Positions 22,095-28,625 of a DNA stretch of 64,000 nucleotides are shown in pieces. The stretch is taken from assembly GCF_029478095.1 (NCBI RefSeq), contig NZ_JAKOAV010000009.1:1-64000 (forward strand), in the 5' to 3' direction. Positions within the stretch are counted from its first letter, which is position 1. Each line of letters begins with the position of its first letter. Source of the stretch: Pelotomaculum isophthalicicum JI. GTDB taxonomy: Bacteria; Bacillota; Desulfotomaculia; Desulfotomaculales; Pelotomaculaceae. The translations under genes were made by a program, and so were the position numbers. The notes under the pieces are model-generated. The model was not told where the DNA came from. It saw only the letters and a list, made by a program, of their open reading frames with translations, and did not search any database.

Positions 22095-22991
22095 TTATCT
22101 ACCTTGAAAACTCATAAATAATTCTAAAATATATGGAATGAATATAATTATAAGTGAATAGTATAATTTTTTCCTATTTTTAACTCTTCTTTCATTTAAG
22201 AATATTTCAACTGAGGGATATAGTTCAATCATATATTCAAGATATTTAGTAGTAAGGGGTATTGCCAAAAATAGCCAAATAAATATATATAACAATGCGC
22301 CTATCAGGAAGGCTATTATTTCATTTGGTATTGAAATAAAAAAGTTTTGCTCCAGATCCAAAATGCTCATACAGATCCTAAAAAAAGAAAAGACAGAGCC
22401 GGCAAGAATTACGCTAAATATTAATTCCAGAGAGAAACTCATTTCATACCAATATTTTCTCTTATTACTACATTTGTTAATGATACTATCAAATAATGTT
22501 GCGACTTCATTAACCCAGTTTGGATTAACTCCTCTTATTTCATATCTATTGTCATAAGTATTTATTATTCCACTATGCTCTCTAACAACAAACAAGATTT
22601 TCCTTTTTAAGCTTGAACATTCAAATTTAATCCTTATTGCATTAACGGATATCTTTAATTTATCCAATAACTCCAACCAGTTATTGCCACTCGTAGTTAA
22701 TGTCTTTTCACCTGCTGTTACGGTGAATGACAAATCAACAGATTTCGCAAATATATTATCCAGGTTGTCAGAATTATCTGTAAAGCCTTCAAGCTTTTTT
22801 AACTTATTAACTATTTCTTTCTTCCAATCCTGTTCATCCTCAGGCGGTTCATTTTCCACAAAGTATTTTTCATATATCTTTTTCAAATCTTCTATAGCCT
22901 TTTTCTTTTCATTCATAAATATTTCCAGCAACGCACTAACGTTTTCTAATCTAAATGTACAGAAAGAAATATTATATTCTACTTTTTCCAT
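22095..22991 (-). CDS. Unrecognised AT-rich protein with C-terminal membrane segments
   Basis: A 298-residue protein I do not recognise. The first 180 or so residues are hydrophilic and charged (EKYFVENEPPEDEQDWKKE, then RYEIRGVNPNWVNEV). Three hydrophobic segments follow, near 188-210, 226-249 and 274-293. Codon use is visibly richer in A/T than in its neighbours, which suggests horizontal acquisition. It stands alone between the aminotransferase and dapF. A soluble head followed by membrane spans would fit a membrane effector or sensor, but nothing in the sequence proves this. Confidence 0.6.
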   Translation of the reverse strand: MEKVEYNISFCTFRLENVSALLEIFMNEKKKAIEDLKKIYEKYFVENEPPEDEQDWKKEIVNKLKKLEGFTDNSDNLDNIFAKSVDLSFTVTAGEKTLTTSGNNWLELLDKLKISVNAIRIKFECSSLKRKILFVVREHSGIINTYDNRYEIRGVNPNWVNEVATLFDSIINKCSNKRKYWYEMSFSLELIFSVILAGSVFSFFRICMSILDLEQNFFISIPNEIIAFLIGALLYIFIWLFLAIPLTTKYLEYMIELYPSVEIFLNERRVKNRKKLYYSLIIIFIPYILELFMSFQGR

Positions 22992-23023: not shown

Positions 23024-23869
23024 TTAGTAATTAAATATCGGATAATCCCCCGTAAAAACCTCTTCAGCGGGACCGGTCATATATATATGATTGTTTGCCG
23101 CCCATTCAATAAAAAGAACGCCTGCCTTCAGGCGCACGGATAATTGACGCCGGGTATAACCATTTATTGCACTAGCCACCGCCGCGGCACAAGCTCCTGT
23201 GCCGCAAGCCATAGTCTCACCGGCTCCTCTTTCCCAAACCCTCATATATACCTCATCCTGGTTATCTACCTGAACAAACTCCACATTGGTTTTACAAGGA
23301 AACAGGTGGTGTTTCTCCAGTAAAGGACCGGCTGTCTGAAGAGGTATCTGTTCAACATCCGGCACAAAGATAACACAATGCGGGTTACCCATTGAAACAG
23401 CGGTTACATTGTAGATTATGCCGCCTGCTTCCAATGGTTCGTTAACAACTTTTCCGGGCGGTCCTTCCATGGGTATCTCCGACCTTTGCAGCCGGGGTTC
23501 ACCCATATCAACCCGTATCATACTTACCCGTTCGTTTTCAATGATCAGTTCTGGAATCATAATCCCGGCCAGCGTTTCTACTTTTATTTTATTTTTTCTC
23601 ACTATGCCATGCTCGAAAAGGTACTTGGCGGCACAGCGAATCACATTCCCGCACATCTCAGCCTCACTGCCGTCTGAATTAAAAATGCGCATTTTTATGT
23701 CGGCCACTTCCGAAGTAAGAAGCGGCACCAGACCATCTGCCCCAATTCCAAAATGGCGGTCACAAGCCTTAACTGCGATACCAGGGAAATCATCCGGTAT
23801 GAATTTTTCTTCAATATAATCAGCCAATATAAAGTCATTACCAAGACCCTGTACCTTTGTAAAACGCAA
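23024..23869 (-). CDS. dapF: Diaminopimelate epimerase
   Basis: A 281-residue enzyme converting LL- to meso-diaminopimelate for lysine and peptidoglycan. The two catalytic cysteines are in [10 protein letters not shown] and [13 protein letters not shown]. The N-terminus, [13 protein letters not shown], is typical. The start codon is TTG at 23869 behind GGGGG; a nearby ATG at 23876 is out of frame. No adjacent dap genes are seen. Confidence 0.95.
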
Positions 23870-23903: not shown

Positions 23904-26699
23904 TTACCCTAATCGCACCCTCAGGTACATCATTTTTTTCTCATATTTACCAACAATATGTCGAAACAACATGCCAATAACGGAAGGTATTACAGAAATA
24001 AACAGAACACAAGCCCATTTCAAAACGTTTAAATGTACGACATGAAAATATGACTGCAAGAATGGCGCATAATTCATTGCAACTTGTAATACACAAGATA
24101 TTAACACTGTCCCCGTCAAATAGGGATTTATAAAAAGACCCTCACGGAGACCGGCGTGCGATTCATTATGACAAGTTAAAACAAAGAATAGCTGGGAAAA
24201 AACTAGCGTATTGAAGGCCATGGTACGGGCAAGCGAGGTTTCTCCCATGGAAAGCCCGGTAAAAAATGCCAGAACTATACTCATACTGATAACCGCCCCG
24301 TCGGCAACAAATTGCCAGGCCAGTTTCCTGTCAAGAACATTGTCCCCCAAATGGCGGGGTGGCCGTATCATAAGATTGCGATCATTAGGCCCCAGTCCTA
24401 AAGTCATCGCAGGTAAAAAATTACTGATAGCGTTTACCCATAAGATCTGAACCGGCAGCAAAGGTATTGGCAGCCCCGCCAATAAAGCGAGAAGCGTAGT
24501 AAATACTTCCCCTGTGTTGCAAGAAAGAAGAAAACGTATTGATTTACGCACGTTATTATAGATTCCCCGTCCTTCTTCAATCACTGCTGCAATACTGCCA
24601 AAATGATCTTCCTCAAGAAATATGTCGGAAACTTCCTTTGTCTTTTCATTACTGGAATAACCCATGGCAATACCAATATCTGCCTCACTGACAGTCCCGG
24701 CATCTTCCAGTCCACTTCCAGTTACGGCAACTACATGTCCTAACTGTTTTAATGCCTTTATTATTCGTAGCTTTTGCTTTGGTGTAACCCTGGCGCACAC
24801 TGAAACTTGATTGATGTAGGCACGTAACTGTTCATTTGACATACGGTCCAAACCACTGCCGGTAAGGATATTTTCTTCTTTGGCAATAACACCCACTTTA
24901 CTAGCTTGTGCACGCGCGGTGAAACGTTGGTCTCCCGTTAACAGCATTACTTTTATAGCAGCCCGGTGGCAAGTTTGCACCGCTTTTAACGCCGCGGGTT
25001 TAACCGGATCGAGCATCCCGGCTAAACCGAGAAAAATCAACTGTTGTTCAATAATTTCTTCAGAAATATTTCCAGCATCGTCAGGAATCTGCTTATAAGC
25101 AAAAGCCAGCACCTGGAGCGCCTCTTTTGTCATTGAGGTGTTATATGCCATGATTTCCCCTTTGTCATGGGCTGACAAGGGCACTATTTTTCCGTTAATA
25201 TAACCATGAGTGCAACGCTCCAACAGCACTTCCGGCGCGCCCTTCACATAAACTGACATGGCTCCGGAAGGCTCCCGGTACACTACGGCCATTCTTTTGC
25301 GTTCGGGATCAAAAGGCAGTTCGGCCACCCTCTGTTCATGCAACTCTAACCTTTCCCGCCAAAATCCTGCCTTAGCGGCCATAACGAGAAGCGCCCCTTC
25401 TGTTGAATCCCCCTTTACCGACCATTTCCCGCTTGTCCGGCCTCCCGTCAGACCTCTAAAAAGTCCGGCAATATTAATACTGCCGCGTTTTAAGACTGCA
25501 TTGTTACAGAGAGCAGCCGCTTTAACCAATAAGTTAAAATGTAACTCATGCTTGTCCCCGGTAAAACCACCCTTGGGATCATAACCTTCCCCTGTTACTT
25601 CCAGAGTACGCCCGCCAACCATAATTTTTTTCACAATTTTTTCGTTTTTGGTAAAGGTTCCTATTTTATTTGAACAGATCACCGTGGTACAACCAAGATT
25701 GGTGATAGAAGTGAGTTTACGGATAACAGCGCCACGTTTGCTCATTCGCTTTGCGCCGATAGCCAGTGCAACTGTGACGATTGACGGAAGACCTGCTGGG
25801 ATAGCCGCTACAGCCAGACATAAACCCGCCAGGCATATCGCGCGGAACTCCTCACCTTTAACCATCAATATCGCCAAAATTAATACACAGGTAAATAGAC
25901 AAAAAGCAGACATAACCTTGTAGAAAAGTTCCAGACAGTGTTTTATCGGTGCCTGATAACGTTCATCCGACATACTAATTCCATTTATGTAACCGATCGC
26001 GGTTGCCATGCCGGTGTGAACAACAACACCACACCCCTGCCCCTTGACAATCACTGTATTCATATAGGCTAGATTAAGATTGTCTATTAAGGCCAGTTCT
26101 TCGCCGGGTAGGACATCTTTTGTTTTTCTAACCGGCACTGATTCTCCCACAAGGGCTGACTCATCAACTTCTAATTTTTCAGTCAGTAGCAGGCGCAGGT
26201 CTGCCGGAACCAGATCCCCTTCCGCCAAAAGAACAATATCCCCCGGTACCAGCTCCGCGGCAGGAACTTTGCGCTCATGCCCACCGCGTATTACCTTTGC
26301 TGTAGGCATGGTTATTCGTTTTAATGTATTAATAAAGCGTTTTGCGCGGTATTCTTGAATACTGCCAAGAATTGCCGCTGTTGTTGCAACAACCATCAAA
26401 GCTACAGCATCATTATATTCAAGGCAAATAATTGAAATAGCAATCGCCGCTAAAAGCGCCAGCATTCCAATGCTTGCAAGCTGCTTAAAGAAAAGTTGAT
26501 GTAATGATACTTTTGCATTCCGGACCAATTGATTTGGTCCAAATCTTAATAACCTTTCACTGACCTCCTTTTCAGACAACCCGTTCTTCAGGTCAGTTTT
26601 AAAATATTCTAAAATCTCCGTCTCAGTCATGGCATGCCATTGCCCGGGCAAAACAACCACCCCTTGTCCTTTTTCCTGATTATTCCTAAACATATTCAT
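23904..26699 (-). CDS. P2-type ATPase homologue with degenerate catalytic and ion-binding residues
   Basis: A full-length 931-residue P-type ATPase of the SERCA/YloB (P2A) architecture with no stop or frameshift. Retained are the N-terminal cation-ATPase domain, KGAPE (486-490), LPFDPERKRM, TGD (588-590), and the M5 residues N728 and E731. Altered are the phosphorylation motif DKTGT, which reads NKIGT with Asn at 344; the A-domain TGES, which reads VGES (184); the hinge GDGxND, which reads GSGLED (661-666); the M4 PEGLP, which reads PAGLP (302); and the M6 Asp that ligates Ca2+, which reads Asn (760). Without the Asp no phosphoenzyme can form, so active transport is not expected. It is divergent from rqcH, as yloB is from yloA in Bacillus. 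Confidence 0.9.
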   Translation of the reverse strand: MNMFRNNQEKGQGVVVLPGQWHAMTETEILEYFKTDLKNGLSEKEVSERLLRFGPNQLVRNAKVSLHQLFFKQLASIGMLALLAAIAISIICLEYNDAVALMVVATTAAILGSIQEYRAKRFINTLKRITMPTAKVIRGGHERKVPAAELVPGDIVLLAEGDLVPADLRLLLTEKLEVDESALVGESVPVRKTKDVLPGEELALIDNLNLAYMNTVIVKGQGCGVVVHTGMATAIGYINGISMSDERYQAPIKHCLELFYKVMSAFCLFTCVLILAILMVKGEEFRAICLAGLCLAVAAIPAGLPSIVTVALAIGAKRMSKRGAVIRKLTSITNLGCTTVICSNKIGTFTKNEKIVKKIMVGGRTLEVTGEGYDPKGGFTGDKHELHFNLLVKAAALCNNAVLKRGSINIAGLFRGLTGGRTSGKWSVKGDSTEGALLVMAAKAGFWRERLELHEQRVAELPFDPERKRMAVVYREPSGAMSVYVKGAPEVLLERCTHGYINGKIVPLSAHDKGEIMAYNTSMTKEALQVLAFAYKQIPDDAGNISEEIIEQQLIFLGLAGMLDPVKPAALKAVQTCHRAAIKVMLLTGDQRFTARAQASKVGVIAKEENILTGSGLDRMSNEQLRAYINQVSVCARVTPKQKLRIIKALKQLGHVVAVTGSGLEDAGTVSEADIGIAMGYSSNEKTKEVSDIFLEEDHFGSIAAVIEEGRGIYNNVRKSIRFLLSCNTGEVFTTLLALLAGLPIPLLPVQILWVNAISNFLPAMTLGLGPNDRNLMIRPPRHLGDNVLDRKLAWQFVADGAVISMSIVLAFFTGLSMGETSLARTMAFNTLVFSQLFFVLTCHNESHAGLREGLFINPYLTGTVLISCVLQVAMNYAPFLQSYFHVVHLNVLKWACVLFISVIPSVIGMLFRHIVGKYEKKMMYLRVRLG

Positions 26700-26831
26700 T
26701 TCAGTTTAGAAAAATACCGTTTTAACCTCTTATGCCGAATAGCTGTCAAACTAAATATTTTCCAAGACACTGCTTTTGTTATAAAATAAAAAAGATGTTA
26801 ATGGCAACGAGTTGTATTGAGGGGATATAGC

Positions 26832-28625
26832 ATGCCTTTTGACGGCCTTGTACTAGCGGCAGTGACAAGAGAACTAAAGGAAAAGCTGGTGGGCGGGCGA
26901 ATCGAAAGAGTTTACCAGCCAAGTAAAGATGAGATAATCCTATTAGTGCACCGGCCAGGATTCAGGGGACGTTTACTTCTTTCGGCCAATGCAAAAAACG
27001 CACGGGTTCACATAACTACTTCAGCCGGGGAAAATCCCGCCACCCCTCCTCTTTTTTGCATGGTTTTGCGTAAATACCTGGAGGGTGGGCGCATTATCAG
27101 CTTTACACAACCTGAATTGGAACGTGTATTTATAATGAAGATAGAGTCAAGAGACGAGTTCGGCAATCCTTCACCCAAGCACCTGATCTGTGAAACCATG
27201 GGCAAGCATAGCAATATCATCCTGGTAGATCCCATCAATAATTTTATCGTTGACGGTATTAAACGTTATTCTCACAGTGTCAGCAGATACAGAGAAGTAT
27301 TACCTGGACGCCCGTATCTATCTCCGCCGCCCCAGAAAAAATTAAACCCTTTTACGGTTGACGAAGAGCTGTTCCGCCTTACCAGTCTTAAATCGCCGCT
27401 GGATACCCCCCTTCCGGCTCTGCTGCAAAAGTGCCTCGGGGGTATGAGTACCGTCACTTGCCGGGAAATTGTTTTTCGGGCCAATTTATCGCCGGACATT
27501 ATTCTGGATCAGTGTGGCGATTATGAACTCAGGTCGCTGTGGAGAGCATTACAAGAATTTATTCTACCAGCCGGTGAAGGCTGTTTCGAGCCATGCCTTA
27601 CATGCAGTCCAAAAGGCAAATTTCAGGATTTTGCCGCAATTAATCTGACGCATACCGGGTTAAAGAGAATAAACGGTGAGATGAACTTCCTTTTAGACCT
27701 TTTCTTTATGGAATATACAAAAAATGACCGGCTCAAGAAAGAAAAAAACATTCTCTTAAGCTTGCTTAATAAAGAAATAAATAAGTTGGGGAAAAAGTTG
27801 GATCTATATGTGAAAGGCCTGGACGAAACCGCTGGGGCAGGCAAACTGAAACTATACGGAGAATTGCTCACCGCTAACATTTACCGGTTGGAAAAAGGGC
27901 TCACTGAAGTATCTTTAGAAAACTACTATGGAAATGGGCCTCAGGTTGTAACCATACCCCTGAATCCGCACCGCTTTCCGTCTGAGAATGCTCAGTCATA
28001 CTTTAAACAATATTTGAAAGCCAAAAATACACACATGGCGTTAAAGACCCAGATTATACGGACTCGTGAAATACTTGATTATGTGGAAGGAATCAAAACA
28101 GCCCTGGAGCAAACTGTTGAAATATCCGGTTTAGAAGAAATTAGACAGGAACTAATCGAACAGGGATTTATCAAACAACCTCTGCAAAAATCATCCATAA
28201 GAAAAAAAACAAAAGATAAACATAAACATAAACCAGTATTTTTATCTTTCCGTTCTTCAGACGGTTTTCAGTTGTTTGCGGGAAAAAATAATAAACAAAA
28301 TGATTTATTAACCTTGAAGTTGGCGCAGGAAAATGACTTGTGGCTGCACGCGAAAGACATTCCCGGCGCTCATGTGATTATCAGAACAGAGGGCAAGGAA
28401 GTACCTCAAGCAACATTGGCGGAAGCAGCAAGTCTGGCGGCATATTTCAGTAAAGCGCGGGAATCAAAGAGTGTTCCTGTTGACTACACAAAAATAAAAC
28501 ATGTCAGCAAACCTAATAACGCGCGGCCGGGGATGGTTATATATGAGCAACAAAAAACGATAATGGGCGTACCTGATGAGGATCTGGCAACGAGGCTCAT
28601 TATCGAAGATAAAAGAAAAGATTGA
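26832..28625 (+). CDS. rqcH: Rqc2 homologue RqcH (NFACT family)
   Basis: A 597-residue NFACT protein, formerly annotated as fibronectin-binding FbpA/YloA. The NFACT-N domain starts MPFDGLVLAAVTRELKEKL, a long coiled-coil region follows (about 280-450), and the C-terminal NFACT-R domain has LWLHAKDIPGAHVIIRT. RqcH binds stalled 50S-peptidyl-tRNA complexes and adds C-terminal Ala tails. The ATG at 26832 follows GAGGGGATATAG. Its divergent neighbour is the P-type ATPase homologue, the yloA/yloB arrangement. Confidence 0.93.
   Translation: MPFDGLVLAAVTRELKEKLVGGRIERVYQPSKDEIILLVHRPGFRGRLLLSANAKNARVHITTSAGENPATPPLFCMVLRKYLEGGRIISFTQPELERVFIMKIESRDEFGNPSPKHLICETMGKHSNIILVDPINNFIVDGIKRYSHSVSRYREVLPGRPYLSPPPQKKLNPFTVDEELFRLTSLKSPLDTPLPALLQKCLGGMSTVTCREIVFRANLSPDIILDQCGDYELRSLWRALQEFILPAGEGCFEPCLTCSPKGKFQDFAAINLTHTGLKRINGEMNFLLDLFFMEYTKNDRLKKEKNILLSLLNKEINKLGKKLDLYVKGLDETAGAGKLKLYGELLTANIYRLEKGLTEVSLENYYGNGPQVVTIPLNPHRFPSENAQSYFKQYLKAKNTHMALKTQIIRTREILDYVEGIKTALEQTVEISGLEEIRQELIEQGFIKQPLQKSSIRKKTKDKHKHKPVFLSFRSSDGFQLFAGKNNKQNDLLTLKLAQENDLWLHAKDIPGAHVIIRTEGKEVPQATLAEAASLAAYFSKARESKSVPVDYTKIKHVSKPNNARPGMVIYEQQKTIMGVPDEDLATRLIIEDKRKD

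Follow-up and report, generated by a model that had tools for sequence, protein, structure and literature searches.

Can the gene of an ion pump outlive the residues on which pumping depends and, if so, what might its product still do? The question is raised by a frame lying in a stretch of 64,000 nucleotides of Pelotomaculum isophthalicicum JI (hereafter the window). This frame runs on the minus strand from position 26699 down to 23904, comprises 931 codons from its first ATG without any internal stop, and corresponds to a degenerate P2A-type (YloB/PMR1-like) ATPase in which the Pfam domains PF00690, PF00122, PF13246, PF00702 and PF00689 are recognized. The aspartyl-phosphate cycle is the defining trait of P-type ATPases. 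It needs a phosphorylated Asp, and the M4 Glu and M6 Asp bind Ca2+. The roles of individual residues are assigned below after established SERCA biochemistry.

The motifs, all on the minus strand, read as a sequence-only reading of the window had claimed. In the P domain, NKIGT (residues 344–348, 25656–25670) replaces DKTGT, Asn344 (codon 25668–25670) occupying the place of the phosphorylatable Asp, and GSGLED (residues 661–666, 24702–24719) replaces the Mg2+-coordinating hinge motif GDGVND, with loss of the Mg2+ Asp and of the Asn and retention of the last Asp. In M4, PAGLP (residues 301–305, 25785–25799) replaces PEGLP and the ligand Glu is lost (codon 302, 25794–25796); in M6, Ser759/Asn760 (24420–24425) replace Thr-Asp. 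Among the ligands of a Ca2+-transporting ATPase (M4 Glu, M5 Asn/Glu, M6 Asn/Thr/Asp), M5 Asn728/Glu731 and M6 Asn756 are kept while the M4 Glu, M6 Thr and M6 Asp are replaced. The nucleotide-binding motif KGAPE (residues 486–490, 25230–25244) is kept. As judged from its sequence, the protein is thus devoid of the phosphorylatable Asp, the hinge Mg2+ Asp and the M4/M6 Ca2+ ligands. By contrast, the loss of dephosphorylation that had also been claimed was overstated and is unsupported in the window genus, since the A-domain loop VGES (residues 184–187, 26139–26150; TGES in relatives) retains Gly-Glu-Ser with the catalytic Glu186 and since the sister species Pelotomaculum terephthalicicum JT has a normal TGES.

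The frame is open over its whole claimed extent, but its first ATG (26699) is probably not the start. Translation probably starts at 26651, at a TTG (codon 17, 26649–26651) giving 915 aa, because this codon aligns with the ATG of the homologues checked and because residues 1–16, upstream of it, form a low-confidence end of the AlphaFold2 model (pLDDT <50). In the window species and in its sister alike, the TTG lies behind GGACAAGGGGTG (26658–26669 in the window, minus strand), a probable ribosome-binding stretch that also precedes the ATG in an intact homologue (L011, genome G005).

Do these replacements exceed ordinary variation? Across 47 homologues of the order, D344, N665 and D760 are invariant (47/47 each) and E302 and D662 are each found in 46/47; this near-invariance indicates that the changes in the window protein are not chance variation. 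Key catalytic and ion sites are intact in 46 of the 47 other homologues, two showing at most a PESLP-like neutral variant, and eight genera of the family have intact motifs. Most intact orthologues within the family are about 50–55% identical to the window protein. Elsewhere in the order, a YloB-type ATPase from another family (L108:1-2733, genome G048) carries TSAS, PDGL and GEGVND with an intact DKTGT, and may be a pump at an earlier stage of a separate degeneration.

The degenerate state is not confined to a single genome. P. terephthalicicum carries a full-length orthologue (71% identity) with NRTEI, PVGLQ, GRGLAD, an M6 Ser-Asn and, as said above, an unaltered A-domain loop. As this genome was assembled separately and has Asn at the same place, a sequencing error at Asn344 is excluded. 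Four further orthologues belong to two other genera, here called g8 and g9. That of g8 (L031) displays PGGLP, DKSGT with its Asp kept, GSKFDD and loss of the M5 and M6 ligands. In the three orthologues of g9 (L056, L057 and L058), the phosphorylation Asp is replaced by Ser, Gly and Ala, the hinge motifs are GSGGGD, GSGIDD and GSGASD, M4 reads PWDLP or PWNLP, and M6 reads GLIAG. The same sites are therefore dead in the sister species and in two more genera, so that the motif loss looked for in relatives is indeed conserved. Among these six pseudo-pumps, the Mg2+ Asp, the hinge Asn and the M4 and M6 ion ligands are changed in all, the phosphorylation Asp is absent from five (g8 being the only genus that keeps it), and the catalytic Glu of TGES is lost only in L057 and L058. 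All six frames are open and full-length, with an overall identity of 44–50% across genera. A DNA pattern for CxNKTGTLT matched none of 398 genomes of the phylum, the Asp control pattern working as expected, and its Ser/Thr/Ala/Gly version matched 2 of 113 genomes of the order, both from g9; these counts are lower bounds since NKIGT, NRTEI and similar variants escape such exact patterns. As to polymorphism within the window species, its one other genome is 64% complete and does not contain the yloB locus.

The pseudo-pump occupies the ancestral yloB locus. The neighbouring genes rqcH (NFACT; 26817–28625, plus strand, Pfam NFACT_N), which is divergent and adjoins yloB in pseudo-pump and intact genomes alike, and dapF (diaminopimelate epimerase; 23024–23869, minus strand, PF01678), located downstream, serve as synteny markers. 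Wherever the contigs extend far enough and the neighbours could be located, dead and intact copies alike lie in the arrangement pyrF-pyrE-rqcH/yloB-dapF-aminotransferase, which could not be recovered for the intact copies of genus g5. Bacillus shares with this locus an rqcH-yloB-yicC-gmk neighbourhood. Between dapF and the aminotransferase gene lies a 298-aa ORF without Pfam match (22095–22991, minus strand), which is 72% identical in P. terephthalicicum; the other genomes examined showed no such ORF at this position. In the yloB tree, the six pseudo-pumps group together as a single clade (SH-aLRT 99), and a tree of eight neighbouring genes, from which yloB was excluded, unites the same three genera with a support of 100 (its row for G005, for which the wrong ORFs were used, carries no meaning). 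This independent tree counters the view that the clade is a long-branch artefact. Synteny and trees thus support a retained pseudo-pump at the yloB position adjoining rqcH, orthologous to the pumps of the family, rather than a recent paralogue beside an intact copy, no intact YloB copy having been found in the pseudo-pump genomes. The simplest history, as read from the tree, is likely a single ancestral loss followed by a second one: the M4/M6 ion ligands, the GDG Asp and the hinge Asn would have been lost first, in an ancestor shared by all three genera, and the phosphorylation Asp later, as it is still present in g8 and has become Asn in the window genus and Ser, Gly or Ala in g9.

The architecture of a pump nevertheless persists. 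YloB/PMR1-type P2A Ca2+-ATPases (Bacillus YloB, Listeria LMCA1, SPCA1, SERCA) resemble the window protein in domain order, length and fold, but the latter is devoid of their phosphorylation Asp, Mg2+ Asp and M4/M6 Ca2+ ligands. The five Pfam domains all score above their cut-offs, and the AlphaFold2 model (mean pLDDT 78.6) keeps the P2A fold, its best Foldseek match being SPCA1 (E 1.8e-60), with SERCA also matched. Residues 680–697 of the P domain, right after GSGLED, fall below a pLDDT of 50, whereas an intact control reaches 59–82 and has a short strand there. Furthermore, the window protein misses the NCBIfam equivalog cut-off for PMR1-type Ca2+-ATPases (566.6 versus 798.3 bits) and that for the SERCA type (528.6 versus 703.4 bits); an intact relative passes both, with 806.6 bits for the former.

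Is such a protein still under selection? One half of the refutation proposed with the sequence-only reading comes true, as other genera include relatives that carry DKTGT at this locus; the other half does not, as dN/dS in the window lineage is not neutral. The window gene and its P. terephthalicicum orthologue, which are both dead and are the only two species sampled in the genus, give a pairwise GY94 omega of 0.277 (dN 0.188, dS 0.679), well below 1 as had been anticipated (2ΔlnL 181.6 against omega 1). Their dS matches the highest value found in the neighbouring genes (0.50–0.68). The frame has therefore remained open, under purifying selection, after the loss of catalysis. For comparison, omega is 0.10–0.20 in neighbouring genes, 0.086–0.167 in intact yloB pairs and 0.35–0.42 in pairs from g9.

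These values must be weighed against slow decay, according to which function was lost in the ancestor, the gene is a pseudogene in the making and the residual constraint does no more than keep an expressed membrane protein from misfolding toxically. Indeed, the overall omega of the pseudo-pumps (0.28–0.42) is about twice that of their intact relatives (0.09–0.17), which indicates that constraint is partly relaxed, and the start codon has changed from ATG to TTG. Furthermore, the catalytic and ion sites of the window protein were not lost preferentially (7/18 versus 73/292 other invariant columns, p = 0.26). This last result also leaves unsupported the argument that changes hitting all key sites while the frame is conserved betray a new function, as well as targeted ablation of these sites by positive selection; it points to a relaxation of the core and not to a directed ablation. 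Slow decay is, however, hard to reconcile with six full-length open frames in three genera, when neutral simulation at the distance of the two congeners alone yields 33 stops on average, and never fewer than 19 in 300 runs, where none is observed. Moreover, misfolding avoidance should shield the membrane helices, yet it is the helices that are relaxed and the soluble N domain that is protected. It is thus a rather unlikely explanation.

The distribution of this constraint is the most informative feature of the clade. Among 310 columns invariant in intact pumps, the pseudo-pumps retain 87–92% in the N (nucleotide-binding) domain, their most conserved module (codons 353–583, 24951–25643, minus strand), and 50–64% in M1–M4. 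The odds ratio of identity between the N domain and the M1–M6/P-loop core is 0.24–0.47 in intact pairs and 1.6–2.5 in pseudo-pump pairs (p from 0.02 to 1e-5 for the shift), the N domain being the less conserved part in the former and the more conserved part in the latter. With region-specific dS, the omega of the N domain is 0.19 (bootstrap 0.14–0.29), versus 0.107–0.183 in three intact pairs (a fourth, with 0.045, is saturated), whereas that of M3M4 plus the P loop is 0.46 versus 0.045–0.060, i.e. an approximately ninefold relaxation. An overlapping antisense ORF (25258–25584) was considered as a cause of the N-domain conservation and rejected: the sister species and an intact relative have this frame open, but g8 does not; fourfold sites have diverged about as much in the N domain (0.43) as in M7–M10 (0.44), and the result holds with region-specific dS. 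Constraint is therefore redistributed, the N domain being held as tightly as in a working pump and the ion path and the phosphorylation loop being strongly relaxed. It is this purifying selection, together with its shift to the N domain, that makes the case for a function.

The same data bear on the roles that the sequence-only reading had listed, i.e. sensor, scaffold, channel or nucleotide-binding regulator, of which the last fits best and the channel worst. A passive channel or leak, or a transporter of another ion, would use the old transmembrane path, and M5 Asn/Glu and M6 Asn756 are indeed kept in the window genus. However, the former ion path, M3–M4, is the most relaxed region: it is among the fastest-evolving ones (58% identity between the two congeners, PAGLPSIV versus PVGLQTLP), and the six orthologues share no common replacement site, the M4 Glu having become A, V, G or W. 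Such a role is very improbable. Even less credible, to the point of being negligible, is a still active ATP-driven pump relying on another acceptor residue; g8 retains its Asp and Asp590, Arg637 and Asp666 are present in 6/6 orthologues, but the loss of the phosphorylated Asp from five and of the Mg2+ Asp and M4/M6 ion ligands from all speaks against it.

What, then, does the N domain retain? Over the six orthologues, 49 of 54 adenine-pocket residues (91%) are kept, compared with 47/72 for phosphoryl transfer and 7/36 (19%) for the ion ligands. Phe463, Met470, Lys486 and Glu434, positions with a known role in ATP binding, are retained in 6/6; against nucleotide binding counts the loss of the phosphate-contacting Arg R529 in three, including the window protein. 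The constraint could nevertheless come from folding or from an interaction surface instead of nucleotide binding. Indeed, in a pure protein-interaction scaffold, a partner would dock on the N domain and nucleotide binding would play no part, which agrees with N-domain constraint at pump level and with a pocket that is not singled out, being kept about as well as the other N-domain invariants (91% versus 87–92%). The persistence of the four ATP-binding positions in every orthologue, despite the low identity across genera, argues against this scaffold, which is considered fairly improbable.

Any such partner is in at least one case not a P2 paralogue. A second, intact pump, the presence of which had been suggested as a check, was found in the window genome: a separate P2-type ATPase with intact motifs on contig C20 (1595-aa frame). 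In G015, a g9 genome, no P2 ATPase was found apart from the pseudo-pump, so that regulation of an active P2 paralogue is rejected as a general role. P-type ATPase frames of ~1570–1595 aa, about double length and with intact motifs, occur in both species of the window genus (L003 on G000:C20, L038 on G001:C49). In G003 (genus g3), a truncated second yloB copy (L111:1192-2679, minus strand) keeps DKTGT and ends after TGD, an intact yloB being also present. The PF01699 Na+/Ca2+ exchanger was detected in none of the seven genomes of the pseudo-pump clade (G000, G001, G008, G009, G015, G019 and G080, one of them 64% complete) versus 17/18 other genomes of the family, and it is also missing from many other genomes of the order. 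As all seven belong to one clade, the exchanger may have been lost just once, along with pump function.

On this evidence, the best explanation, with a probability of roughly 0.55, is that the window protein is a dead orthologue of YloB-type P2A Ca2+-ATPases, under purifying selection, that serves as a nucleotide-responsive membrane regulator or scaffold and not as a transporter. The pseudo-pump would be unable to autophosphorylate or to run the pump cycle; its N domain, given the residues kept, most likely still binds an adenine nucleotide; this nucleotide, or a partner bound to that domain, would make the cytoplasmic headpiece move relative to its membrane anchor, and this movement would underlie the regulatory or scaffolding role at the membrane.

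A few known systems come close to such a protein. TMEM94/ERMA of animals is P-type-like, with a disputed or absent phosphorylation cycle and no TGES; a micromolar affinity for AMPPCP was reported, although the site proposed for phosphorylation had no nucleotide visible nearby (PMC12134183). Its activity is contested, a Mg2+ pump having been argued (PMC13322241). It thus resembles the pseudo-pump in combining a P-type-like architecture with a doubtful cycle, but it is eukaryotic, distant and keeps Asp417. Plasmodium guanylate cyclase beta includes a degenerate P4-ATPase domain from which the signature motifs are largely gone (PMC6592433). It also shows a P-type part without signature motifs in a protein with another output, but is a eukaryotic cyclase fusion of P4 type, whereas the window protein is stand-alone, bacterial and P2A. 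According to the retrieved part of a broad review of P-type ATPases, CtpE/P6 ATPases are devoid of the M6 Asp of Ca2+ efflux pumps, like the pseudo-pump, but are active pumps and keep PEGL in M4; that part of the review makes no mention of a dead bacterial P-type member (PMC10654040). No description of a bacterial protein of this kind was found in the open-access literature searched.

It is possible, if still doubtful, that a stand-alone lineage of bacterial P-type ATPases has turned into non-pumping, nucleotide-sensing membrane regulators kept across three genera. Annotation by family name would label these proteins cation pumps, though they are very probably unable to pump. The clade provides a natural separation-of-function series, from intact pumps through an Asp-keeping but ion-dead form (g8) to fully dead ones (the window genus and g9). 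As it is vertically inherited and has lost the cycle while selection on the N domain stays at the level of a pump, it makes transport-independent jobs of P-type ATPases testable. If the proposed role is true, the P-type N domain would be a reusable signalling module that is separable from transport.
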